From assembly GCF_024256385.1 (NCBI RefSeq), contig NZ_JAMLFW010000001.1, positions 248,001 to 312,000 of the forward strand: a DNA stretch of 64,000 nt. Direction: 5' to 3'. A program made the translations under genes and the position numbers. Of the stretch, positions 38,425-48,740 are shown one piece after another. Within the stretch, counting starts at the first letter, position 1, and each line of letters starts with the position of its first letter. The stretch comes from Anatilimnocola floriformis. GTDB lineage: Bacteria; Planctomycetota; Planctomycetia; Pirellulales; Pirellulaceae. The notes beneath the pieces are model-generated. The model was given only the letters and a program-made list of their open reading frames with translations, made no database searches and had not been told where the DNA came from.

Positions 38425-41154
38425 ATGTCAGACGTACAAGACATTCCTGTTGATGATGCTGCCGCAGGCACTCACAACCAATCGCCGGTGCAGGATCTCG
38501 ATCCCGCCGAAACTCAGGAATGGCTTGATTCGCTGAACTACGTTCTGCAAAGCAAAGGCGGCGAGCGGGTGAAATACCTGCTGTCGGTCCTCGAAGAGCG
38601 AGCCCGCGAGCAAGGGGTCGATCTGCCTATCGATCTCGACACTCCTTATATCAATACGATTCCCGCCTCGGCCCAGCCGCGGTATCCCGGCAATCGCGAA
38701 ATCGAACGCCGCATCAAGAGCATCGTCCGCTGGAATGCGATGGCGATGGTCGTGAAGGCGAACAAGAACTTCGACGGCGTGGGTGGGCACATCTCCACGT
38801 TTGCGTCGAGCGCGACCTTGTACGAAGTGGCCTTCAACCACTTCTTCAAAGGCCGTGGCGAAGATGGCTACAGCAGTGACCAGATTTATTTTCAGGGGCA
38901 CGCTTCGCCGGGCATGTACTCGCGGGCCTTCCTCGAAGGCCGTTTGAGCGAAGAGAATCTGAATCACTTCCGCCGCGAGTTGCGCGAGACGCCCGGGTTG
39001 TCGTCGTATCCACATCCGTGGTTGATGCCGGAGTTCTGGGAATTCCCCACGGTGTCGATGGGCCTCGGCCCGATCATGTCGATCTATCAAGCCCGCTTCA
39101 ACTATTACCTGCAAGATCGCGGCATCAAGCCGATCAACGGTCGCAAGGTGTGGGCCTTCCTCGGTGACGGCGAATGCGACGAACCCGAGTCGCTCGGCGC
39201 GATCACGCTGGCCGGCCGCGAAAAGCTCGAAAATCTGGTCTTCGTCATCAACTGCAATCTGCAACGGCTCGATGGTCCGGTGCGCGGCAACGGCAAGATC
39301 ATTCAAGAGCTCGAAGGGCTGTTCCGTGGCGCCGGCTGGAATGTGATCAAAGTCGTCTGGGGCGAAGACTGGGATCCGCTACTGGAAAAAGATGAATCGG
39401 GCTTGCTCGCGAAACGAATGGCAGAGGTAGTCGACGGTCAGTATCAAAAGTACGTCGTCATGCCGGGCTCGTACACGCGTGAGCACTTCTTCGGCAAGTA
39501 TCCCGAGTTGCTCAAGCTGGTCGAGAACTACTCCGACGAAAAGCTCGCCAAGCTCCGCCGCGGCGGTCACGATCCGGAGAAGGTTTACGCGGCCTACAAA
39601 GCGGCCATGGACTGCAAAGGCAAGCCGACCGTCATTCTCGCGAAGACGATCAAGGGCTATGGTCTCGGCGAAGCGGGCGAAGGCCGCAACGTCGCGCACA
39701 ACAACAAGAAGATGAACGAAGCGGAGTTGCTCGAGTTCCGCACGCGGTTTGGCATTCCGATTTCGGATGCGGAAGTGGCCAAGACGCCGTTCTACAAGCC
39801 GCCAGAAGATTCTCAGGAAATGCGTTATCTGCGCGAACGTCGCGCAGCGCTCGGCGGCAGCGTGCCGAGCCGGCCGAAGGTCGCGCCGACGATTCAAACA
39901 CCGCAGTTCTCGGATTCCACGTTCAACGAGTTCAAAGTCGGCACCGGCGACAAGGAAGCCTCGACCACGATGGCCTTCGTGTCGTTGCTCCGCAAGCTGG
40001 TCCGCGACAAGCAGATCGGCAAGTATGTCGTGCCGATTGTTCCCGATGAATCGCGGACGTTCGGCATGGAAGGCATGTTCAACGAGATCGGCATCTACTC
40101 GCACGTCGGTCAGCTGTACGAGCCGGTCGATTCGGGCATTCTCGCCAAATACAAAGAGGCGACGAACGGCCAGATTCTGGAAGAAGGAATCACCGAAGCG
40201 GGCTCGATCAGCAGCTTCTGCGCGGCGGGCACTGCCTATGCTTCGCATGGCGTGAACATGATTCCGTTCTACATCTACTACTCGATGTTCGGCTTCCAGC
40301 GCGTCGGCGATTCGATCTGGTGCGCTCAGGACATGCGGGCCAAGGGCTTCTTGCTCGGCGGCACTGCGGGTCGCACGACGCTCAATGGCGAAGGCCTGCA
40401 GCATCAAGATGGTCACAGCTTGCTGAACGCGATCGCATTCCCGAACGTGCGGGCCTACGACCCGGCGTACAACTACGAGATCGCGGCGATCATTCTCGAC
40501 GGCATGCGGCGGATGTATCAGGACGGCGAGACGGCCATCTATTACCTGATGGTCGGCAACGAGAACTACGCGCATCCGCCGATGCCGGAAGGTGTCGAAG
40601 ACGGCATCATTCGCGGCATGTACAAGTTCAAGACCAAGGAAGTGCCGGGCGCCAAGCTTAAGGTGAACCTCTTCGGCGGTGGCGCTATCCTTCGTCATGT
40701 GCTGAAGGCGCAGGACCTCCTCGCCGAGAAGTACGGCATTAGCAGCAACGTGTGGAGCGTCACCAGCTACACGCAGTTGCGGCGCGATGCTCACTCCTGC
40801 GAGCATTGGAACATGCTGCATCCCGATCAGCCGCGGCGGACTTCGTATGTCGAAGAAGTTCTCGCGCCGGAAAAGGGAAGCCTGTTCGTCGCTGCGTCGG
40901 ATTATGTCCGGGCAGTGCAAGAACAGATCGCCGCTTGGATTCCTGGCGATTACTACGCCCTCGGCACCGACGGCATGGGCCGCAGCGAAACCCGAGAAGC
41001 CCTGCGTCGGCACTTCGAGGTCGATGCCGAATGCGTCACCCTCGCCACGCTGTATCGCTTGGGCCTCCGCGGCGACCTCGACAAGAGCGTGGCGGCTCAA
41101 GCCATTAAGGACCTCGGGATCAACCCCGAGAAGATCGATCCGTACTTTGCGTAA
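38425..41154 (+). CDS. aceE: Pyruvate dehydrogenase E1 component, homodimeric type
   Basis: A 909-residue homodimeric E1 that decarboxylates pyruvate with thiamine diphosphate and passes the acetyl group to E2. ATG 38425 (GAGAG upstream) was preferred to the TTG 6 nt before. The TPP/Mg motif is GDGECDEPESLGAITLAGRE, followed by FVINCNLQRLDGPVRGNGKI. WNAMAMVVKANK near the N-terminus and GRTTLNGEGLQHQDGHSLLN are E1 signatures; the C-terminal GTDGMGRSETREALRRHFEV domain is complete. aceF follows after 150 nt containing repeat A. No E3 (lpd) gene is in the window. Confidence 0.96.
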   Translation: MSDVQDIPVDDAAAGTHNQSPVQDLDPAETQEWLDSLNYVLQSKGGERVKYLLSVLEERAREQGVDLPIDLDTPYINTIPASAQPRYPGNREIERRIKSIVRWNAMAMVVKANKNFDGVGGHISTFASSATLYEVAFNHFFKGRGEDGYSSDQIYFQGHASPGMYSRAFLEGRLSEENLNHFRRELRETPGLSSYPHPWLMPEFWEFPTVSMGLGPIMSIYQARFNYYLQDRGIKPINGRKVWAFLGDGECDEPESLGAITLAGREKLENLVFVINCNLQRLDGPVRGNGKIIQELEGLFRGAGWNVIKVVWGEDWDPLLEKDESGLLAKRMAEVVDGQYQKYVVMPGSYTREHFFGKYPELLKLVENYSDEKLAKLRRGGHDPEKVYAAYKAAMDCKGKPTVILAKTIKGYGLGEAGEGRNVAHNNKKMNEAELLEFRTRFGIPISDAEVAKTPFYKPPEDSQEMRYLRERRAALGGSVPSRPKVAPTIQTPQFSDSTFNEFKVGTGDKEASTTMAFVSLLRKLVRDKQIGKYVVPIVPDESRTFGMEGMFNEIGIYSHVGQLYEPVDSGILAKYKEATNGQILEEGITEAGSISSFCAAGTAYASHGVNMIPFYIYYSMFGFQRVGDSIWCAQDMRAKGFLLGGTAGRTTLNGEGLQHQDGHSLLNAIAFPNVRAYDPAYNYEIAAIILDGMRRMYQDGETAIYYLMVGNENYAHPPMPEGVEDGIIRGMYKFKTKEVPGAKLKVNLFGGGAILRHVLKAQDLLAEKYGISSNVWSVTSYTQLRRDAHSCEHWNMLHPDQPRRTSYVEEVLAPEKGSLFVAASDYVRAVQEQIAAWIPGDYYALGTDGMGRSETREALRRHFEVDAECVTLATLYRLGLRGDLDKSVAAQAIKDLGINPEKIDPYFA

Positions 41155-41202
41155 GTAGGGATGAAGGGTTGAAGCGAGGAAGGGATGAAACTCCTCGCAT
41201 TA

Positions 41203-41246
41203 CTCCCTCGCCCCGGTACGCCGGGGAGAGGGTTGGGGTGAGGGGC
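41203..41246 (+). repeat. Dispersed palindromic repeat A, copy 2
   Basis: CTCCCTCGCCCCGGTACGCC followed by GGGGAGAGGGTTGGGGTGAG, a hairpin-forming element in the aceE-aceF gap. Same orientation as the copy at 49628-49672 and opposite to that at 6823-6866. It could modulate read-through between aceE and aceF. Confidence 0.85.
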
Positions 41247-41304
41247 CTGAGCCGCACCAAGACTTAGCTAATCAATCGAATCGAAGAATAGAAGCGAAAC
41301 AATC

Positions 41305-42669
41305 ATGGCCATCGAAGTCAAACTCCCCAATCTCGGCGAAGGTGTGGAATCGGGAGATATCGTTGACATCCTCGTCAGCGAGGGAGACACCATCGCCAAG
41401 GATCAGGCGATCATCGATATCGAAACCGGCAAAGCGACCATGCAAGTGCCGAGTGATTTCGCCGGCAAGGTCGTGAAGGTACACATCAAGAAGGGCCAAA
41501 CCGTGAAGAACGGTGCGGTCCTGCTCACGCTCGAAGGCGCCGCCGCTGGTGCCTCAGCCGCGCCAGCCAAGCCGGCTCCTGCTGCTGAAGCGCCGAAGGC
41601 TGCTCCGGCGCCAGCCAAGCCAGCGCCGCAACCTGCCGCTCCGGCTCCCCAGCCAGCCGCGGCGAAACCAGCGCCCGTTGCTCCTGCTCCCGTGAAGGCC
41701 GTTCCAGCGCCGCAGCCGGTTGCTCAAGCGCCGGTCGCCACCATCGCTCCCGCCGAAGAAGCAGCTGAGTATGGCGATGTCGCCGCGGGGCCGGCTGTTC
41801 GTCGCTTTGCTCGCGAAGTGGGCGTCGATCTGTCGCGCGTCACCGGCAGTGGTCCGGGCGGTCGCATTTCGCGCGAAGATGTTCTCGCCGTGGTCCGCGC
41901 TCAAAGCCAAGGCGTGGGTGTGAACAGTAGCAAGACTGACGCCGGCTCGAGCGCTCGCGACAACTACGGGCCGATCCATGTCGAGAAGATGACCAAGATC
42001 CGCAAGGTCATCGCGGCCCAGATGCACAAGTCGTGGACGACTTGCCCGCGGGTTACCAATTTCGACGATGCCGACGTGACCGAGCTGGAAAAGATCCGCG
42101 TCAGCAGCAAGGACGACTACGCTCGCAAGGGAATCAAGCTCACGAGCCTGCCGTTCGTGGTGAAGGCCGTCGCCATGGCCCTCAAGTCGCATCCCACGAT
42201 CAACGCTTCGATCGACGAAGATGGCGAGCACATCATCTTCAAGGACTACGTCAACGTCGGCATCGCGGTCGACACTGACCGGGGCCTGATGGTCCCCAGC
42301 CTGCGTCATCCCGACACCATGTCGATTCCCGATGTCGCGCGGGCCCTGGGAACAATCAGCGAGAACGTCCGCGACGGCAAGATTACGGCTGCCGACATGC
42401 AGGGGAGCACGTTCACCATCAGCAACCTCGGCGCGATCGGCGGTACTTACAGCACGCCGATCATCAACGTGCCGGAAGTAGCCATCCTGCTGGTTGGTCG
42501 GGCTCGCAAGATGCCGGTCGTCGTCAACGACGAAATCGTCATCCGCTTGATGATGCCGCTGAGCATTTCGTACGATCATCGCCTCGTCGACGGCGGCGCT
42601 GCGGCGCGGTTCCTCAACGACGTGATCGATTATCTGAAGAGCCCCAGCCGGTTGCTGCTCGCTCCGTAG
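41305..42669 (+). CDS. aceF: Dihydrolipoamide acetyltransferase (pyruvate dehydrogenase E2)
   Basis: A 454-residue E2 with a single lipoyl domain (1-80, lipoyl Lys43 in DIETGKATMQV) and an Ala/Pro-rich swinging linker (about 85-155). A peripheral-subunit binding domain (about 163-205, AVRRFAREVGVDLSRVTGSG) and the catalytic domain (about 230-454) follow. The active-site SYDHRLVDGG is at 422-431 with His425 and Asp429. It is shorter than E. coli AceF, which has three lipoyl domains. The neighbouring aceE makes the pyruvate assignment safer than other 2-oxoacid complexes. Confidence 0.95.
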   Translation: MAIEVKLPNLGEGVESGDIVDILVSEGDTIAKDQAIIDIETGKATMQVPSDFAGKVVKVHIKKGQTVKNGAVLLTLEGAAAGASAAPAKPAPAAEAPKAAPAPAKPAPQPAAPAPQPAAAKPAPVAPAPVKAVPAPQPVAQAPVATIAPAEEAAEYGDVAAGPAVRRFAREVGVDLSRVTGSGPGGRISREDVLAVVRAQSQGVGVNSSKTDAGSSARDNYGPIHVEKMTKIRKVIAAQMHKSWTTCPRVTNFDDADVTELEKIRVSSKDDYARKGIKLTSLPFVVKAVAMALKSHPTINASIDEDGEHIIFKDYVNVGIAVDTDRGLMVPSLRHPDTMSIPDVARALGTISENVRDGKITAADMQGSTFTISNLGAIGGTYSTPIINVPEVAILLVGRARKMPVVVNDEIVIRLMMPLSISYDHRLVDGGAAARFLNDVIDYLKSPSRLLLAP

Positions 42670-42672
42670 CGT

Positions 42673-43286
42673 TTACGCTTCGCCATCGTGCAGCAAGTAC
42701 GCCAGCGCGATGAAGTCGTACAGCGCGTGCGCGATGATCGCCGGCAGCAAACTGCCGCTGACGAGCATCAGCAGCCCAAAGTAAGCGCCGGCGAGTGTCG
42801 CCAGCGCGAAGTAAGTGTTGCTCAGATAGTGGCACAATCCGAACAAGACCGACGCGATCAATAAGCTGCCGACCAGTGCGAACGAGTTCGGCAGCAGCGC
42901 GGCCAGGCCCGCTTGAATCAAGCCGCGGAAGAGCACCTCTTCGCCAATTCCCGCCGCGAGCGCAACGATGAGGAGTTGCCACAGGGCGGCGCCTCGCAAT
43001 AACTTCTGTAGCAGCTCACGGACCTGATCTTTCAGATCAGCGAGTGCCTCCATTGCTCGAAATCGACCAGCAGAATGGCCACGGCTGGTCCGGTGGCGGC
43101 AACTCCCCAAAGTACGTCGCGGCAGAGCGCGCTCGCGTCGTAATCGGTCCGCCACAGACCGTGCCACGGATCAAAACCTACCAGCCAACCAATGACCATC
43201 GCCACAGCAGCGAGTCCACCCTCGAGCACTAGCGCAAGGCTCACAAAGCGAGCCGGCGACGGATTGGCATCTTCAGCAGGGAGCAC
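42673..43286 (-). pseudogene. CPBP family intramembrane glutamic endopeptidase, split by frameshift
   Basis: Two minus-strand ORFs (43286-43032 and 43167-42673) overlap and look like one protein of about 200 residues. The first (GTG 43286) has SLALVLEGGLAAVAMVIGWL and a second helix ending ILLVDFEQWRHSLI-stop. The second frame continues LADLKDQVRELLQKLL, LALAAGIGEEVLFRGLIQAG (the E-E-x3-R CPBP active site), VLFGLCHYLSN and AHALYDF. The first frame reaches the second by adding one base near 43032-43040, so a 1-bp deletion or sequence error is likely. An alternative ATG at 43053 would make the C-terminal part alone. If restored, it is a membrane protease (CAAX/bacteriocin-maturation family). 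It is the last gene of the six-gene minus-strand block. Confidence 0.65.
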
Positions 43287-43343
43287 GTTGGACTCAGGCG
43301 TTCAAAAAGACGCGTGCTTTCGCGGAGCGAAAGCCGACAGTGG

Positions 43344-44147
43344 TTACTTGCGGAGCACGATACACCGCTTGTGGCCGCAGCCATAGACCGAGCACGAGCC
43401 GAAGTACTGCCAGCAATCGAGATGGTGCGGCGTTTTACATTTCTGGCACTGCACCACGTTTTCAGTAAGTGGATCGCCGCAGACCTGGCATTCTGTATCG
43501 TGCAAGGAAATCGTAGGCCGCACTTGCCCTTCGACGAACTCAATGCCGTCGCTCAGCGGTTTTTGAATGAGCCGGATCAGCTTGAAGCAACAGCGGGCAA
43601 ATTCCGACAGCTGCAGCTCGCTGGTGAAGTGCTCGTGCTTGGTGACTCGCAGTGTGCCGCCACCTAACTGCAAGTGCAGATCGTGGTGGGGCTGCGTGCC
43701 GCAGCAGACCAGCGCCATGATCGCGTAACGAACGTCTTGACGCAGAAACTCGCGGATCTCGCGCTCGTTACTCCCTTGAATGATGAACGCCGCATCGAAC
43801 TCCGGCACGCCGATCTCGATGTCCTGCATGCCGAAGTATTTGCCGATGTTCTGGGCAATTCCCTGCGGCCGCAGTTCCATCCGCAGCCGAATGTCGAACA
43901 GCGACATGGTGAGATGCGTGTAAACATCGTCGCCGTCGTTCGAATAGCTGAGAGTCGTGGGCGTGTCGCCCAGCTGAAACGTCACCTGCGGGAAATCCCA
44001 GGCCCCGCCGCGCTTGATGCGGCCCCGCCAGATTGAGGCAAAACGATTCAGGTCGCTGTTATGCGATGAATACGCGATGCCGGCGATGATCACCATGATC
44101 ACGCCGATAGCGAACAGCACGACTGCAAATTCAACACCGCTCTCCAT
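43344..44147 (-). CDS. Membrane-anchored prokaryotic RING-finger protein, paralogue 3
   Basis: A 267-residue protein; the ATG at 44147 lies 1 nt after the stop of the previous gene (TAG-C-ATG), so translation is coupled. One N-terminal membrane helix (FAVVLFAIGVIMVIIAGIAY, 7-26) is followed by about 190 residues of mixed alpha/beta. The C-terminal treble-clef/RING is C220-x2-C223-x10-C234-x2-C237-x3-H241-H242-x2-C245-x6-C252-x4-C257 (PHHLDCWQYFGSCSVYGCG). This matches the prokaryotic RING family 1 pattern. RING domains bind metal and proteins; a ubiquitin-ligase-like role cannot be inferred. Closest relatives in the window are the next two genes upstream. Confidence 0.8.
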   Translation of the reverse strand: MESGVEFAVVLFAIGVIMVIIAGIAYSSHNSDLNRFASIWRGRIKRGGAWDFPQVTFQLGDTPTTLSYSNDGDDVYTHLTMSLFDIRLRMELRPQGIAQNIGKYFGMQDIEIGVPEFDAAFIIQGSNEREIREFLRQDVRYAIMALVCCGTQPHHDLHLQLGGGTLRVTKHEHFTSELQLSEFARCCFKLIRLIQKPLSDGIEFVEGQVRPTISLHDTECQVCGDPLTENVVQCQKCKTPHHLDCWQYFGSCSVYGCGHKRCIVLRK

Positions 44148-44148
44148 G

Positions 44149-44958
44149 CTATGCTCGCCTGGCTTCGGTGTAACGATGCTGCCCACAACCGTAGACCGCG
44201 CACGATTCGAAATAATTCCAGCAATCGAGATGGTGCGGCGTTTTGCAGCTCAAACAAAAGACGATCTTTCCCTCGAGCGGATGGCCACAGACCTGGCATT
44301 CGGTCTCTTGCACCCGCGGCAGCGGCGAAGACGAGACGAACTCGATCCCGGTGTTGCGCGAATAGGCGAGCGCTTCGAACACTTCGGAGAACAGGGTGAT
44401 GAACTCGTTCAGCTCACCCACGCTCTGAAAACCACGATGCTTTGTCACCCGCAGCACGCCGCCGGAAATCGTCAGGTGCAGATCGTTTGAGACCAGCGTG
44501 GAAAAACGAGCGAGCTTCAGGATCGCCACTTGCGACTGCGGATTCAGATACTCGATGATCCGCTCCGGTTGATTGCCGTTGATGATGAAGGCATCGTCGA
44601 ACTCGCGCGCGCCGATTTCCAGGTCATACATGCCCAGCAATTTCTTCAACTGCTGAATCACGTCCTGCACATACAGCTCAAGTCGCAGTTGCTTGTCGGG
44701 AAAATGAACCGACAAGTGTGTATTGCGGCTGTTTTTGCCGCGCTTCGAATAACTGAGCCGAGCATAGGCGTCGCCGATTTGCATCACGAGACCGTCGTAA
44801 CCAAAGAAGCCGCCCAGCTCGACGTAGCCCTTCCAACGCTTGGCGACTTGCTCGAGCACGCCTTTATTGACGGCGCTCGAAATCGACGCGATGGCGACGA
44901 AGATGCCAATAATCACCAGGAAGGCGATGAAGCATAAAGGAAACGCATCACGGGCCAC
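44149..44958 (-). CDS. Membrane-anchored prokaryotic RING-finger protein, paralogue 2
   Basis: A 269-residue paralogue with a GTG start (GGGAG 6 nt upstream). A membrane helix at 9-28 (CFIAFLVIIGIFVAIASISS) is followed by a region with the same layout as paralogue 3: KRWKGYVELGGFFGYDG, LSYSKRGKNSRNTHLSV, LRVTKHRGF and TGIEFV. The RING ligands are C221, C224, C235, C238, H242, H243, C246, C253 and C258, in identical spacing. Between the helix and the RING all three share W.G...RGG or GY...GG, LSYS, LRVTKH and GIEFV-type strings, so the intervening domain is homologous too. Confidence 0.8.
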   Translation of the reverse strand: MARDAFPLCFIAFLVIIGIFVAIASISSAVNKGVLEQVAKRWKGYVELGGFFGYDGLVMQIGDAYARLSYSKRGKNSRNTHLSVHFPDKQLRLELYVQDVIQQLKKLLGMYDLEIGAREFDDAFIINGNQPERIIEYLNPQSQVAILKLARFSTLVSNDLHLTISGGVLRVTKHRGFQSVGELNEFITLFSEVFEALAYSRNTGIEFVSSSPLPRVQETECQVCGHPLEGKIVFCLSCKTPHHLDCWNYFESCAVYGCGQHRYTEARRA

Positions 44959-45050
44959 GGCAAGCTCCCAAATCTCCCTTCAGCAGCGAAAGGACGTTTT
45001 ATGGTATTCGATTTTCGCCAGATGTTCTTTTGCGAAAACCGAAATCCCCC

Positions 45051-45941
45051 TTAACGCGGCTTGCTGGGCCGACCAGGCGGCAGTTCTTGCGATGGCTCGG
45101 GGGGCGCGTGATTTCCTGCCGTAGGAAAAGCCCGGCGGGGGAGCAGATAGATCGTCTCGCGACAGCCATACGTCGCGCAGCCGCCGGCATATTCCCAGCA
45201 ATCACGATGGTGCGGCGTCTGACAGCGACGGCAGATGACAATCTCGGCCGACATTTCTTCGCCGCAGATCCGGCAGTTGGCGTGATCGATGATCTGCGGC
45301 TGATCACCGTTTACGAAGTCGATTCCCTCAGTCTTCGTCAGCTGCAGCTGATCGTACAGACCGAGCGTCGTTTCGACGAACTGCTCCAGATCATTGGCCC
45401 GCGACGATTCCCACACCTTACGCACCACCAGCCAGCCGGGATAAATCAGCACCAGCGTCTCGGCCGGTTCCGGCGAGCGGCTGATGCGCTCGAGTTGCAC
45501 GCGCACGCCCGAGCTGAGGAGCAGGCGCGACTCTTCTCCTTCGTCGGCCCACACATTCCAGCGCAGGCGGAAATCGTCCCAATCGAATTCGAGTTCGTGC
45601 AGTCCGCGCAGATCGATGGCAATCTGCCGTCGTGAGACGCGCGGCACGAGGGCCATGTGCAGCGAAACGTCGGACCACTGCACGATCATCTCGAGGCACT
45701 TGCGACCCGACGTCCCCGGCAAGCTGTAAACCGACAGCCGCGAATAAGTCGTGCCGTAAGGAAGACGTAGCGAGGGATTGCTGAACCAACCGCCGCGACT
45801 CAGCACGCCGCCGAACCGCTGAGCGACCGCGGCCAGCGCGCTATTCCAGCGCTCGAATCGGGCCGCCGTTTGACTGAAGACGCCAAACAGTGCCAGCACG
45901 ACGATAGCAGCAAACAGCATGAAAACGCCAACACATTCCAT
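45051..45941 (-). CDS. Membrane-anchored prokaryotic RING-finger protein, paralogue 1 (divergent)
   Basis: A 296-residue protein with weak ribosome-binding site at ATG 45941. Membrane helix at 5-23 (GVFMLFAAIVVLALFGVFS). The middle domain is recognisable (FGGVLSRGGWF, TTYSRLSVYS, WLVVRKVWES, EGIDFV) though more divergent. The RING has C223, C226, C237, C240, H244, H245, C248, C255 and C260 with the same spacing as the other two (TPHHRDCWEYAGGCATYGC). A Pro-rich tail of about 30 residues (PEPSQELPPGRPSKPR) follows the RING, absent in the others, and could bind a partner. The gene starts 69 nt after the second DUF1559 gene. Confidence 0.8.
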   Translation of the reverse strand: MECVGVFMLFAAIVVLALFGVFSQTAARFERWNSALAAVAQRFGGVLSRGGWFSNPSLRLPYGTTYSRLSVYSLPGTSGRKCLEMIVQWSDVSLHMALVPRVSRRQIAIDLRGLHELEFDWDDFRLRWNVWADEGEESRLLLSSGVRVQLERISRSPEPAETLVLIYPGWLVVRKVWESSRANDLEQFVETTLGLYDQLQLTKTEGIDFVNGDQPQIIDHANCRICGEEMSAEIVICRRCQTPHHRDCWEYAGGCATYGCRETIYLLPRRAFPTAGNHAPPEPSQELPPGRPSKPR

Positions 45942-46010
45942 GCATCCATTGTTGGCGTCGGCGCGGAAACTTGCCAGTGCAGTAACCCGGCGAGTTCTGC
46001 GCCTTGCTGG

Positions 46011-46895
46011 CTAGGGAAGATTCACGATCTCACCGCCGCCTTTCGTGGTGATTGCCCTCATGTTCTGTTGAAAGTCTTGCAGCGCCATGAAGCGCACGCT
46101 GCCGTCGGCAAACAGAATTTGAACTTCGTTGGGCTCAGCCGTCGGCGGTGGCATGCCCAGGTCGACATTCCATTCGACGGGCTCCGCCCAGTTGGAGGGA
46201 CCACGACTCGTGCCGACCATGATGATCGTGTTGCTCAAGCCGTCAGTCACACTCGAAAACTTGACTGCTTTGCTCCCTTCAAACATCGTGCCGACCCCCG
46301 TCACGAAGACATAATCGCTCCGTTGCAGCGAACCCGATTTGTTGTTGGGGTCTTGAAAGGTCTTGATGATCGTATCGGTGACGGCCAGATTCTCCGGCGC
46401 ATCCCAAGCCTTCGATTTGTCGAATTGTTGAAAGAGCGCCGCTTGGTCCATGTAAGGCAACAGCAGCACGCGACCGCTGTAAAGTGGCTTGCCATCGGCA
46501 TCGGTGACTACGGCCGGCGGAAAGCTGCCGTGCACATCGTGATAGTTGTGCAGCGCCAAGCCGAGTTGCTTCATATTATTCTGCGAAATCATTTGATCTC
46601 GTCTGCCTCCCATCTGCGACCGGCCAATAAAGAGAACAGAGGCCACGCCGCCACAGCAGAGGAGAATACAGCCCATCACGATCGCCAGAATGACGAGGAG
46701 CGTGGAGCCGCCGCCGGACTTGCTCCCGCCAGTCGGCGCGTACATTGGCGTCTGCATGGTCGCGGGCGCTGCAAAACTCGCTTTGGGAATGGTGATCTGC
46801 TGGCCGCAGCCGGCGCACGCGCCGCTCTGGCCCGCGAACTGATCGGCAACAACCGTCTGTTTGCCACAATGAGGACAGCGAAATTCGATCGTCAT
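46011..46895 (-). CDS. Zinc-ribbon/TM DUF1559 protein, second of pair
   Basis: A 294-residue protein. An N-terminal zinc ribbon has C7-x2-C10 and C27-x2-C30 (FRCPHCGKQTVVADQFAG...ACAGCGQ), facing the cytoplasm before a single membrane helix at about 64-92 (LLVILAIVMGCILLCCGGVA). DUF1559 features follow: SQNNMKQLGLALHNYHDVHG, DGLSNTIIMVG and LFADGSVRF. It differs from the secreted DUF1559 proteins at 8.8 and 13.2 kb in having the zinc ribbon instead of a pilin leader. The ATG is 3 nt after the stop of its paralogue (TAA-ACC-ATG), so the two are coupled. Confidence 0.85.
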   Translation of the reverse strand: MTIEFRCPHCGKQTVVADQFAGQSGACAGCGQQITIPKASFAAPATMQTPMYAPTGGSKSGGGSTLLVILAIVMGCILLCCGGVASVLFIGRSQMGGRRDQMISQNNMKQLGLALHNYHDVHGSFPPAVVTDADGKPLYSGRVLLLPYMDQAALFQQFDKSKAWDAPENLAVTDTIIKTFQDPNNKSGSLQRSDYVFVTGVGTMFEGSKAVKFSSVTDGLSNTIIMVGTSRGPSNWAEPVEWNVDLGMPPPTAEPNEVQILFADGSVRFMALQDFQQNMRAITTKGGGEIVNLP

Positions 46896-46898
46896 GGT

Positions 46899-47768
46899 TT
46901 AATATCCTAAGTCAGGCATACTTCGGTCGTCAGCTCGTTGCATCAGTTGTTGCAGCGCCATTTGCATTAAGTGCGTGCGAATCGCGCGCACGCTGCCATC
47001 GGCAAAGGCAGTGAGCACTACCTGCGGATGATTACCCGGCGGCAGCACGCCGCTGTCGGCATTCCAGTCGACGGGCTCTGCCCAATTCTGCGGGCCCGTC
47101 GCGGTTTGAATCACCATGATCGTGTTGCTCGTGCCATCGGTGATGCTGGCAAAGTTGGTTGTTTTGCTACCCTCAAAAATCGTCCCCGTTCCGGTCACGA
47201 AGACATAGTCGCTCCGAGGTGCAGCCGGTCCGCCCGGATGGGCCGGATCTTGAAACGTCTTGATGATGGTCGCGGTGATCGCTTGATTCTCAGGGCTGTC
47301 CCAAGCTTTGTTTTTGTCGAAGGCTTGGTACACCGCGTTTTGATCGAGGAACGGCAGCAGCAGGACTCGGCCGCTATATAGCGGTTGGCCATCGGTATCG
47401 GTGACGACGGCCGGCGGGAGGGAGTTATACGTATCGTGGTAGTTATGCAGCGCAAGAGCGATTTGCTTGAGGTTATTCAGCGACTTCGTTTGCTGTGCAG
47501 AAATACGAGACTGGGAAATCACAGGAAAAAACAACAGGCCGGCGCCACCGAGGCAAATCACACCGAGCACCGCAACCGTGGCGAGAATAACAAGCAGCGC
47601 TGCGGTTCCTGAACTGCTCTTGGTCGACGGTCCCGCCGGGTAGCTGCTCGCGGTGAGTGGAATGGTCACCGATTTTCCACAGGCTGAGCACGGACCGGTT
47701 TGCCCTGCGAATTGATCGGCAACGACGGTTTGCTTGCCGCAATGCGGGCAGGAAAAATTGATCGGCAC
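46899..47768 (-). CDS. Zinc-ribbon/TM DUF1559 protein, first of pair
   Basis: A 289-residue paralogue of the next gene, GTG start with AAGGA 7 nt upstream. Zinc ribbon C7, C10, C27, C30 (FSCPHCGKQTVVADQFAG...PCSACGK), membrane helix at about 54-80 (AALLVILATVAVLGVICLGG), then DUF1559 features (SLNNLKQIALALHNYHDTYN; DGTSNTIMVIQ; TAFADGSVRAI). It leads the minus-strand block that continues through the second DUF1559 gene, the three RING genes and the CPBP gene. It is divergent from the EEP-family gene at 47865, with 96 nt between starts holding both promoters. Confidence 0.85.
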   Translation of the reverse strand: MPINFSCPHCGKQTVVADQFAGQTGPCSACGKSVTIPLTASSYPAGPSTKSSSGTAALLVILATVAVLGVICLGGAGLLFFPVISQSRISAQQTKSLNNLKQIALALHNYHDTYNSLPPAVVTDTDGQPLYSGRVLLLPFLDQNAVYQAFDKNKAWDSPENQAITATIIKTFQDPAHPGGPAAPRSDYVFVTGTGTIFEGSKTTNFASITDGTSNTIMVIQTATGPQNWAEPVDWNADSGVLPPGNHPQVVLTAFADGSVRAIRTHLMQMALQQLMQRADDRSMPDLGY

Positions 47769-47864
47769 GGTTCATTCCTTGCAGCAAAGCATCAGGTCTG
47801 GCGGTGGATTATAAAAGGTGCAACGCCACGTTGCACGCTCCACCCGCACCCTCCGCGATACGTC

Positions 47865-48740
47865 ATGTCACGATTCTTACTTATGTTCGCCGCTCTCGCT
47901 TTGGCCGCTACTTCACCACTGGCTGCTCAGCCCGCCGCCGAGAACACATCGCTGCAGGTGATGACTTGGAACATTCGTTACGACAACGCCAATGACGGCG
48001 TCGATCGCTGGCGCAATCGCCGCGACTGGGTGGCGGAAATCATTCTGCGCGAGAAAGTGGATCTCGCCGGCTTTCAAGAGGTGCTGGCCGGGCAATTTCA
48101 CGATCTGCAAGAACGGCTGCCGGAATTTGCTTCCTACGGCGCGGGCCGCAACGACGGCAAACAGCAGGGAGAAATGTCGCCGATCTTTTATCGTAAGGAA
48201 CGCTTCGAACTCCTCGATAAAGGAACATTCTGGCTGTCGACGACTCCGGAAGAAATCGGCAGCAAAGGTTGGGATGCAGCGCTGCCGCGAATCGCCAGCT
48301 GGCTGAAGTTGCAGGACCGGCAAACCAAGGAATCGCTGACCGTGCTCAACACGCACTTCGATCATCAGGGAACGAAAGCCCGCCGTGCCAGCGCTGAGTT
48401 GATCGTCAAACAAGTCCGCGAAAAATTTGCGACGCTGCCGCTAATTTTCATCGGCGATCTCAACAGCTTGCCCGATTCGGCCGCTTATGAAACGCTCGCC
48501 GCGAAAGGGACCGATGATCTGCCGCTGCTGCGCGATGCCTACGTCGCGGCCAAGAGCAAAGAAGGTCCCGACTCGACTTGGAACGGTTTCAAGAAGATCG
48601 TGCCGGGAAGCCGAATCGATTATTTGTTTGCGACTCGGCAATGGGACATCGAAAAACTTAGCACGCTCACCGATCAGCGCGACGGCAGGTTCCCGTCGGA
48701 TCACCTGCCGATTGTTTGTCGCCTGTCGTTGCGGAAGTGA
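47865..48740 (+). CDS. Secreted endonuclease/exonuclease/phosphatase (EEP) family hydrolase
   Basis: A 291-residue exported protein; ATG 47865 gives a signal peptide (MSRFLLMFAALALAATSPLA). EEP motifs: VMTWNIRYDN (Asn36), AGFQEVL (Glu72), LNTHFDHQG, IFIGDLNS and PSDHLPIVC (terminal Asp-His). All metal and catalytic positions of the DNase I/exonuclease III/sphingomyelinase fold are present. Secreted members usually hydrolyse phosphodiesters such as lipids or nucleic acids. The exact substrate is not evident. Three palindromes follow the stop. Confidence 0.88.
   Translation: MSRFLLMFAALALAATSPLAAQPAAENTSLQVMTWNIRYDNANDGVDRWRNRRDWVAEIILREKVDLAGFQEVLAGQFHDLQERLPEFASYGAGRNDGKQQGEMSPIFYRKERFELLDKGTFWLSTTPEEIGSKGWDAALPRIASWLKLQDRQTKESLTVLNTHFDHQGTKARRASAELIVKQVREKFATLPLIFIGDLNSLPDSAAYETLAAKGTDDLPLLRDAYVAAKSKEGPDSTWNGFKKIVPGSRIDYLFATRQWDIEKLSTLTDQRDGRFPSDHLPIVCRLSLRK

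Follow-up and report, generated by a model that had tools for sequence, protein, structure and literature searches.

Three membrane-anchored RING-finger genes of the planctomycete Anatilimnocola floriformis as the putative displaced end of a ubiquitin-like conjugation operon

The RING gene array

The window analysed here, a stretch of 64,000 nucleotides from the planctomycete Anatilimnocola floriformis (assembly GCF_024256385.1, contig NZ_JAMLFW010000001.1, positions 248,001 to 312,000), carries three tandem genes on the minus strand at 45941-43344, transcribed in the order P0003, P0002, P0001 (Table 1). The encoded proteins share one architecture, in which an N-terminal hydrophobic helix is followed by some 160 residues of middle domain and then by a zinc domain at the C-terminus, and can be aligned over their full length, with 42% (P0002) and 28% (P0003) identity to P0001. 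The key point of the analysis is that these genes appear to have been displaced from the end of an operon for ubiquitin-like conjugation. The genome of the window (8.93 Mb, 17 contigs) is designated G000 and that of its congener G001.

An earlier note on this DNA had described a tandem triplication of RING-finger membrane proteins. The protein type is borne out, as the Pfam family PF14446 (Prok-RING_1) is found above its cut-off in all three proteins, each has a hydrophobic helix, and the structural models of P0002 and P0003 agree with the description. The triplication holds in so far as the three genes are real, related and on the same strand, but they fall into two classes, one gene of class A followed by two of class B. 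Likewise, the coupled stop-start junction exists between genes 2 and 3, which are separated by a single base, but not between genes 1 and 2 (P0003 and P0002), which lie 92 bases apart. Because of this gap, which leaves only the second junction coupled, equal expression of all three genes, as the note had proposed, does not follow. For P0001, an upstream GTG at 44186 is a possible alternative start. The extra Pro-rich tail ascribed to one of the genes belongs to P0003, and its end is the same in G001.

Table 1. Features of the RING gene array and its downstream neighbour (positions in the window; pLDDT, predicted local distance difference test)
Feature	Position	Strand	Evidence
RING protein class A, P0003, 296 amino acids, first array gene	45051..45941	-	PF14446, 46.2 bits; class A in tree; model pLDDT 89.1
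Hydrophobic membrane helix of P0003	45876..45932	-	Hydropathy, positive charges after helix; long helix in model
TtfA/CCDC47-like middle domain of P0003	45330..45812	-	VIA-align on model: 6t84 Z 14.2, 7tm3_4 Z 12.5
C4HC3 RING of P0003	45156..45281	-	Pfam PF14446
Pro-rich C-terminal tail of P0003	45051..45134	-	End identical in G001 orthologue; low model confidence
RING protein class B copy 1, P0002, 269 amino acids	44149..44958	-	PF14446, 37.3 bits; class B in tree; model pLDDT 89.8
Hydrophobic membrane helix of P0002	44881..44937	-	Hydropathy; model
TtfA/CCDC47-like middle domain of P0002	44344..44835	-	VIA-align on model: 6t84 Z 12.7, 7tm3_4 Z 10.3
C4HC3 RING of P0002	44173..44304	-	Pfam PF14446, model, alignment
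Junction between P0002 and P0001 (stop TAG, one base, start ATG)	44145..44151	-	Stop 44151-44149, ATG 44147
RING protein class B copy 2, P0001	43344..44147 (from ATG)	-	PF14446, 39.0 bits; class B in tree
Hydrophobic membrane helix of P0001	44073..44129	-	Hydropathy
C4HC3 RING of P0001	43365..43499	-	Pfam PF14446
Rce1-like (CPBP) membrane protease gene, downstream of array	42673..43286	-	Directly after class B gene in G001; here N-terminal part in another frame (by eye)

The RING domain

The scores of all three proteins with PF14446 (Table 1) exceed the gathering cut-off of 29.1 bits, and the domain is found at an expectation value (E) of 0.1 or better in all 35 members of alignment A7. A search of the complete genome yielded three matches at E 0.001, all in the array; neither PF14446 nor the full-length profile detected a fourth member in G000. 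Across the phylum, for context, 51 of 294 genomes have a PF14446 match at E 0.001, 35 of them above the cut-off. The rings are 70% identical between P0001 and P0002, and 43-46% between either of them and P0003. The metal ligands and a TPHH-x-D-CW core are shared by all three, but the ring as a whole is not kept exactly, contrary to the earlier note.

All eight metal ligands, in C4HC3 order with a long spacer between the last two, are present in 30/30 rows of alignment A6. This alignment comprises 30 of the 42 family proteins, leaving out L054, L081 and L082 (His replaced by Cys), L065 (ring cut), L056, L057, L061 and both L059 proteins (divergent), L064 (no ring) and two pieces of L072. In A7 the seven Cys are found in 35/35 rows, with a change of His to Cys in L054, L081, L082 and L149. 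Two residues past the first Cys, between the first two ligands, every A6 row has a hydrophobic residue, either V (15 rows) or I (15 rows). We take this position, the presumed contact place for the ubiquitin-conjugating enzyme (E2), to be that of I30 in the archaeal RING protein srfp. A change of srfp I30 abolished the archaeal reaction, as reported in a section of the study concerned (PMC5654768).

In VIA-align comparisons, the ring of the P0002 model resembles BIRC7 from the UbcH5b-Ub complex (Z 5.6) and the Prp19 U-box (Z 5.5, root-mean-square deviation 1.7 over 49), with ZZ zinc domains following close behind the RINGs (p62, Z 4.7-4.8; KCMF1, 5.2). For the barely probed ring of the P0003 model there is one U-box row only (Z 5.0, root-mean-square deviation 4.6). 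No significant sequence match to P0002 alone was found in the Protein Data Bank (PDB), and the best match of the A7 profile there was a plant cellulose synthase RING (E 0.0016).

Nine other planctomycete genomes (G077, G124, G177, G192, G207, G222, G235, G248 and G271) have at least 17-21 Prok-RING_1 matches each, far more than the genome of the window.

Membrane helix and middle domain

The count of lysine plus arginine is higher after the hydrophobic helix than before it in 42/44 rows, which predicts a cytoplasmic ring. The AlphaFold models of P0002 and P0003 agree with one another in showing a long N-terminal helix, an alpha/beta domain and the RING. As the earlier note had stated, the region between helix and ring diverges: the middle domains are 39% identical between P0001 and P0002, and 20-22% between either and P0003, in each case below the values for the ring.

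The nearest structural neighbour of the middle domain in VIA-align is TtfA (6t84), followed by a subunit of the multipass translocon (7tm3_4), while the next neighbours, type III secretion chaperones, score at a Z of about 8 and lower. We take the translocon subunit in 7tm3_4, 6w6l_7 and 9i78_4, which the tool lists by entry title, to be CCDC47. The fold reading rests on VIA-align, which itself cautions that a common fold is no proof of function: Foldseek with the P0002 model returned nothing under E 0.001 (best 6w6l_7, at 1.0e-3), and the PDB sequence and profile searches yielded no sequence-level match of the middle domain to TtfA or CCDC47. DUF3137 (PF11335, cut-off 26.1 bits) scores 12.7 bits in P0001 and is matched at E 0.1 or better in 13/35 A7 rows (best 4.2e-6).

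The ubiquitin-like operon in relatives and in the genome of the window

Around matches to the RING profile, 32 loci were fetched from other genomes of the family and order, and their genes were called and clustered with those of the window. The RING family is present in 31 of the 33 loci, the window included, and of these 31 loci 16 also hold an E2, 17 a JAB peptidase, 16 a ubiquitin-activating enzyme (E1, ThiF) and 13 a ubiquitin-like protein (Ubl); two further loci, L062 and L063, represent a second operon type. In L071, L076 and others, the gene order is Ubl, E2a, JAB1, E1, JAB2, E2b, followed by one to three RING genes. The Ubl is a match to Pfam YukD with Ala-Gly near its end in 14/14 rows, 5 of which extend further. 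E2a has the active-site Cys and a W-V-P-S motif in 6/6 rows, and E2b has neither in 5/5 rows. By eye, JAB2 appears to have membrane helices and a coiled coil.

Profile searches located the same six genes, Ubl, E2a, JAB1, E1, JAB2 and E2b, on one strand at C1:234978-240408 of the genome of the window. Their Pfam matches are, in order, YukD, UQ_con, JAB, ThiF, JAB and UQ_con, each over its cut-off. This operon, outside the window, shares a contig with the RING array, from which it is 51 kb away, and ends with an 88-residue protein where relatives have a RING gene. Among the 458 open reading frames of 50 amino acids or more in the window, none was related to Ubl, E1, E2 or JAB at E 0.001. The congener G001 likewise has, in the stretches compared, the operon genes, the RINGs and an Rce1-like protease gene; its RING pair is 1.86 Mb from the operon if its single contig is circular, and 7.14 Mb otherwise. 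In the nearest operonic relative (L037, from a metagenome-assembled genome, Planctomycetaceae bacterium isolate F1-120-MAGs210), the order is E2a-JAB1-E1-JAB2-E2b-class A-class B, with a Ubl match just 5' of this set at G519:C15:51462 (L037 being taken as G519:C15). Its RINGs are sisters of the G000/G001 proteins of class A (support 100/100) and class B (98/94). Since the L037 operon thus ends in sister RINGs, the most likely history is a displacement of the array in the lineage leading to G000 and G001.

PADLOC assigned the operon of G000 to generic JAB and E1-E2 models and found BilC and BilD only weakly: BilC, at 18.4 bits, is below the best generic JAB model (32.2), and BilD, at 32.7 bits, is below the best E1-E2 model (63.2). 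A cobalamin adenosyltransferase gene adjoins the operon in seven loci (L054, L060, L073, L075, L079, L080 and L084; names from L073), most of which also have P-II and/or GlnD beside the operon. Because of the adjoining cobalamin adenosyltransferase, a role in defence is not favoured.

Two further features of these operons were noted. A second planctomycete variant (L062, L150, L152, L155) combines Ubl, E1, JAB and E2 with proteins that have the RING in their N-terminal half, of which there is one in L062, two in L155 and three in L150 and L152. Furthermore, an acidic-hydrophobic motif resembling D-D-x-L/I-x-F/Y-I recurs at the end of both E2 types (A2, L131) and at the start of several E1 proteins (A3), and may be a docking peptide.

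Co-occurrence of RING and Ubl

A survey of 241 genomes of the family found a match to the ring region in 83 and a Ubl in 78: 75 have both, 8 the RING only, 3 the Ubl only and 155 neither (Fisher p 6e-49, which overstates independence, as the sampled genomes are kin). Counted by genus, in the same order, the numbers are 37, 4, 0 and 27 (p 5e-15). The ring-region cut-off of E 1e-10 was chosen after the list had been seen; if weak and middle-domain-only matches are counted, 106 genomes match at E 0.001. The Ubl and E2 profiles match the same 23 of 60 genomes, G000 included.

No more than 10 kb separate RING and Ubl in 55 of the 75 genomes with both, one of which (G021) was counted through a weaker ring match (E 1.6e-9) of the second operon type. 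In the other 20, the two are far apart on one contig in 3 (G000, G001, G020) and on different contigs in 17. Among the eight RING-only genomes are three assemblies that are 73-85% complete (G389, G406, G453); the other five (G019, G373, G374, G375 and G022) have a divergent RING relative. The three Ubl-only genomes comprise one whose RING match is cut by a contig end (G442), one that is 80% complete (G460) and one that is fragmented and 8% contaminated (G395).

In G019 (L057/L157), the divergent RING gene stands at the usual place of the operon, between a transglutaminase-like gene and the NUDIX and cobalamin adenosyltransferase genes, as if the rest of the operon had been lost or had not yet been gained.

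Two classes of RING genes

A midpoint-rooted tree of 48 proteins, from which seven rows were dropped (L056, L057, L058, both L059 proteins, L060 and L061), is divided into two sides at a branch with 96/95 support; some of the later genes have very long branches in it. Every first gene of an array, 13 in total, falls on the class A side, together with 15 genes that stand singly and 1 later gene (the third of G033); the class B side contains 15/16 later genes and 4 single genes. The array of the window reads A, B, B, and the order of A before B recurs in other genera. The largest tandem RING cluster consists of one gene in 69 of the RING genomes, of two in 11 and of three in 3 (G000, G002, G033).

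A first tree had 39 rows. The approximately unbiased (AU) test was run after this tree had been seen, on a tree of 32 rows lacking the same seven long-branched rows, in which support for the class B side is weaker (61/94). The test rejected (p-AU 0.028) the best tree in which all five G000 and G001 genes are held together as one clade. The two class B genes of the window form one clade with the class B gene of G001, which is nearer to P0002, and because of this placement the duplication within class B appears to predate the split between G000 and G001; G001 may have lost one class B gene. The comparison of tree and structure that had been named beforehand as a check returned one family and one fold, with neither unrelated rings nor non-homologous middle domains, but with two old classes.

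Identity between G000 and G001 decreases from the Ubl (91%), JAB1 (89%), E1 (84%), E2b (76%) and class A (75%) to E2a (63%), JAB2 (58%) and class B (49 or 40%), so that no part of the pathway is conserved less than class B in this one genome pair. The idea of the earlier note that one scaffold is given different partners is compatible with these results, which show a middle domain more divergent than the ring and, in the pair compared, class B as the part conserved least.

Two class B genes of G002 (L073, 9806-11759) have identical ring stretches, indicating a recent copy, and are separate in the tree from the class B pair of the window. In G017 (L072, 8636-9447), a class B gene is spread over two open frames and is either frame-broken or misassembled.

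Proposed function and alternatives

The three proteins are probably the E3-like (ubiquitin-ligase-like) component of a bacterial ubiquitin-like conjugation pathway, a ligase activity that we infer because orthologous RING genes close the Ubl-E2-JAB-E1-JAB-E2 operon in relatives, and because the genome itself has the rest of the operon, without a RING, 51 kb from the array. Membrane-associated substrates are suggested by the models, which place the middle domain near TtfA and the translocon subunit. The E1 would activate the C-terminal glycine of the YukD-type Ubl, which would be passed on to the Cys-bearing E2a, and the RING of one of the three proteins would then dock the charged E2a~Ubl. Tethered by the N-terminal helix to the inner membrane face, the TtfA/CCDC47-like middle domain would present a membrane-associated substrate; from the models we infer that it would choose the substrate to which the Ubl is conjugated. 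The two JAB peptidases would mature the Ubl or take it off, and the Cys-less E2b may act like a Ubc variant. Class A would serve as the constant ligase, and the varying class B copies would widen the range of substrates.

A more far-reaching version, to which we give a rather low probability, sees here a bacterial counterpart of membrane-protein ubiquitylation. At the inner membrane surface, the CCDC47/TtfA-like domain would grip polytopic or nascent membrane proteins and the RING in cis would add the YukD-type Ubl, with class A constant and class B evolving fast for variable clients; the membrane-anchored JAB would remove the tag, possibly with a hand-over to the Rce1-like protease.

Several observations weigh against the main reading. 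The tail of the Ubl has Ala-Gly in place of Gly-Gly, and for YukD of Bacillus a negative result on conjugation is reported (PMC1779556). In the archaeal E2, as described in part of PMC5654768, a change of PS to AA in loop 7 left the reaction unimpaired while PS to AQ impaired it, and because the former change is harmless the Pro-Ser of E2a is weak evidence. The ligand order is C4HC3 instead of the canonical C3HC4. The linchpin position after the last Cys, expected to be Arg or Lys, is Arg in P0003 and Gly in P0001 and P0002; in A6, Gly is found in 19/30 rows and R in 4/30. Since a RING E3 is expected to have this residue, the proteins are called E3-like and not E3. Furthermore, the RINGs are far from the operon in both G000 and G001, so that the link in these genomes consists of orthology and co-occurrence, and G019, G373, G374, G375 and G022 have a divergent RING relative and no Ubl match. 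The kinship of the sampled genomes and the late choice of the ring-region cut-off count on the same side.

Some of these points would suit proteins that belong to the pathway without being ligases, in which the ring is a zinc adaptor holding E2a, E2b or JAB2 at the membrane. The operon and co-occurrence evidence fits such an adaptor equally, JAB2 itself looks membrane-anchored with a coiled coil by eye, the linchpin is not conserved and the ZZ zinc domains score nearly like RINGs. We nevertheless regard it as unlikely, given the V or I at the presumed E2-contact place in every A6 row and an E2a that keeps its Cys and W-V-P-S throughout. That the detached copies have left the pathway for an unrelated membrane job appears still less probable. 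The distance to the operon, 51 kb in G000 and at least 1.86 Mb in G001, and the RING relatives without a Ubl match in five genomes (1 to about 30 contigs) would fit it, but the six-gene operon is kept in both genomes with a detached array, there is no further Prok-RING_1 in G000 and no further A1 match in G001, and each of the three proteins retains its ligands and the V/I residue.

The zinc domain could also be a PHD-like peptide reader and not an E2-binding RING, in keeping with its C4HC3 spacing with C-x4-H-x2-C and with weak Pfam PHD matches (PF00628; 19.3, 16.4 and 16.4 bits in the three proteins, and E 0.1 or better in 31/35 rows). However, these matches are under the PHD cut-off of 24 bits, while PF14446 is above its own, and RING and U-box domains are among the structural neighbours of the P0002 ring. 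We consider a PHD-like reader highly improbable. In addition, a passage of a review (PMC11354881) gives C4HC3, with the spacer preceding the final ligand lengthened, as the prokaryotic RING form. The same passage describes bacterial RINGs without two of the ligand pairs, which is not so for the rings of the window.

Relation to known systems

Burroughs, Iyer and Aravind reportedly predicted, in 2011, ubiquitin-like operons with YukD-like Ubls in planctomycetes, actinobacteria and acidobacteria. Such operons are also stated to occur in Planctomycetes in part of a later paper (PMC4197634, citing Burroughs 2011), and a prokaryotic RING-type E3 together with JAB, E1, Ubl and E2 is mentioned within conflict systems in an excerpt of another (PMC7159879). 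In contrast, a survey from 2014 found no complete ubiquitin toolkit in bacteria (PMC4327156). Compared with the reported planctomycete operons, the present case has three RINGs of two classes, 51 kb from the rest, and the models of P0002 and P0003 combine a membrane helix with a TtfA/CCDC47-like domain. In the literature searched, Burroughs 2011 apart, we did not meet a detached array, A and B classes in fixed order, a TtfA/CCDC47-like domain on a RING protein or the gradient of conservation. We therefore regard the array as a variation on the operons already reported, detached, with two putative ligase classes and a membrane-partner domain.

The closest experimental parallel is the E1/E2/srfp cascade of the archaeon Caldiarchaeum subterraneum, which has been reconstituted and which, in the sections consulted (PMC5654768), likewise combines E1, E2 and RING with a JAMM peptidase (there Rpn11) in a prokaryote, a hydrophobic E2-contact residue in the RING and Pro-Ser in loop 7 of the E2. 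Srfp, however, is a small RING shown there against a RING-H2 consensus, while the present RINGs are C4HC3, membrane-anchored and in several copies, accompanied by a second, Cys-less E2 and a second JAB. The Bil system (BilABCD) also comprises a bacterial Ubl, E1, E2 and JAB, but as outlined in the review passage (PMC11354881) it is a four-gene operon without a RING, and its BilA has two ubiquitin-like domains; here the Ubl has 97 amino acids with one YukD match, and RINGs are present.

Mycobacterial TtfA (6t84) resembles the proteins of the window in its N-terminal membrane helix and cytoplasmic C-terminus; its first 205 residues are essential and it is tied to MmpL3, as set out in part of PMC6593404. 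Unlike the window proteins, it is a partner of MmpL3, and no RING is mentioned in that part of the paper (PMC6593404). Identity between TtfA and the middle domains is 8-9% over the aligned parts. The likeness to the CCDC47-type translocon subunit concerns the middle-domain fold, aligned together with the membrane helix over 191 residues in P0003. This subunit is a eukaryotic partner of ribosome and translocon and is not known to have a RING.

The proposed role gives a plausible job to three genes of hitherto unassigned function, and suggests that in planctomycetes an entire Ubl cascade is served by a small, diversifying group of membrane-bound ligases of its own. The split into classes A and B, the Cys-less E2 and the fold of the middle domain make RING-dependent tagging of bacterial membrane proteins testable, a question that bears on how ubiquitin signalling and membrane quality control arose in eukaryotes. 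Gene-neighbourhood annotation by itself would overlook such a case, since the putative ligases of this genus lie off their operon.

Neighbouring genes

In the region 42500-47900, no sigma-70 promoter was found by scanning (1.7 expected); terminator-like sites numbered 9 against 5.5 expected, a figure not used in any reading. No Rfam match was found in 41000-48000, and the NCBIfam scan gave no relevant match. In G001 (L066), the Rce1-like protease gene is one open frame directly 3' of the class B gene. In the window, its N-terminal part is, by eye, in another frame than the rest, so that either the gene is broken or the assembly contains a misreading. A tandem pair of related genes lies immediately upstream of the RING array, on the same strand, at 46011-47768. 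Both start with a zinc-ribbon-like stretch, and the scanned member (46011-46895) matches DUF1559 (SBP_bac_10).

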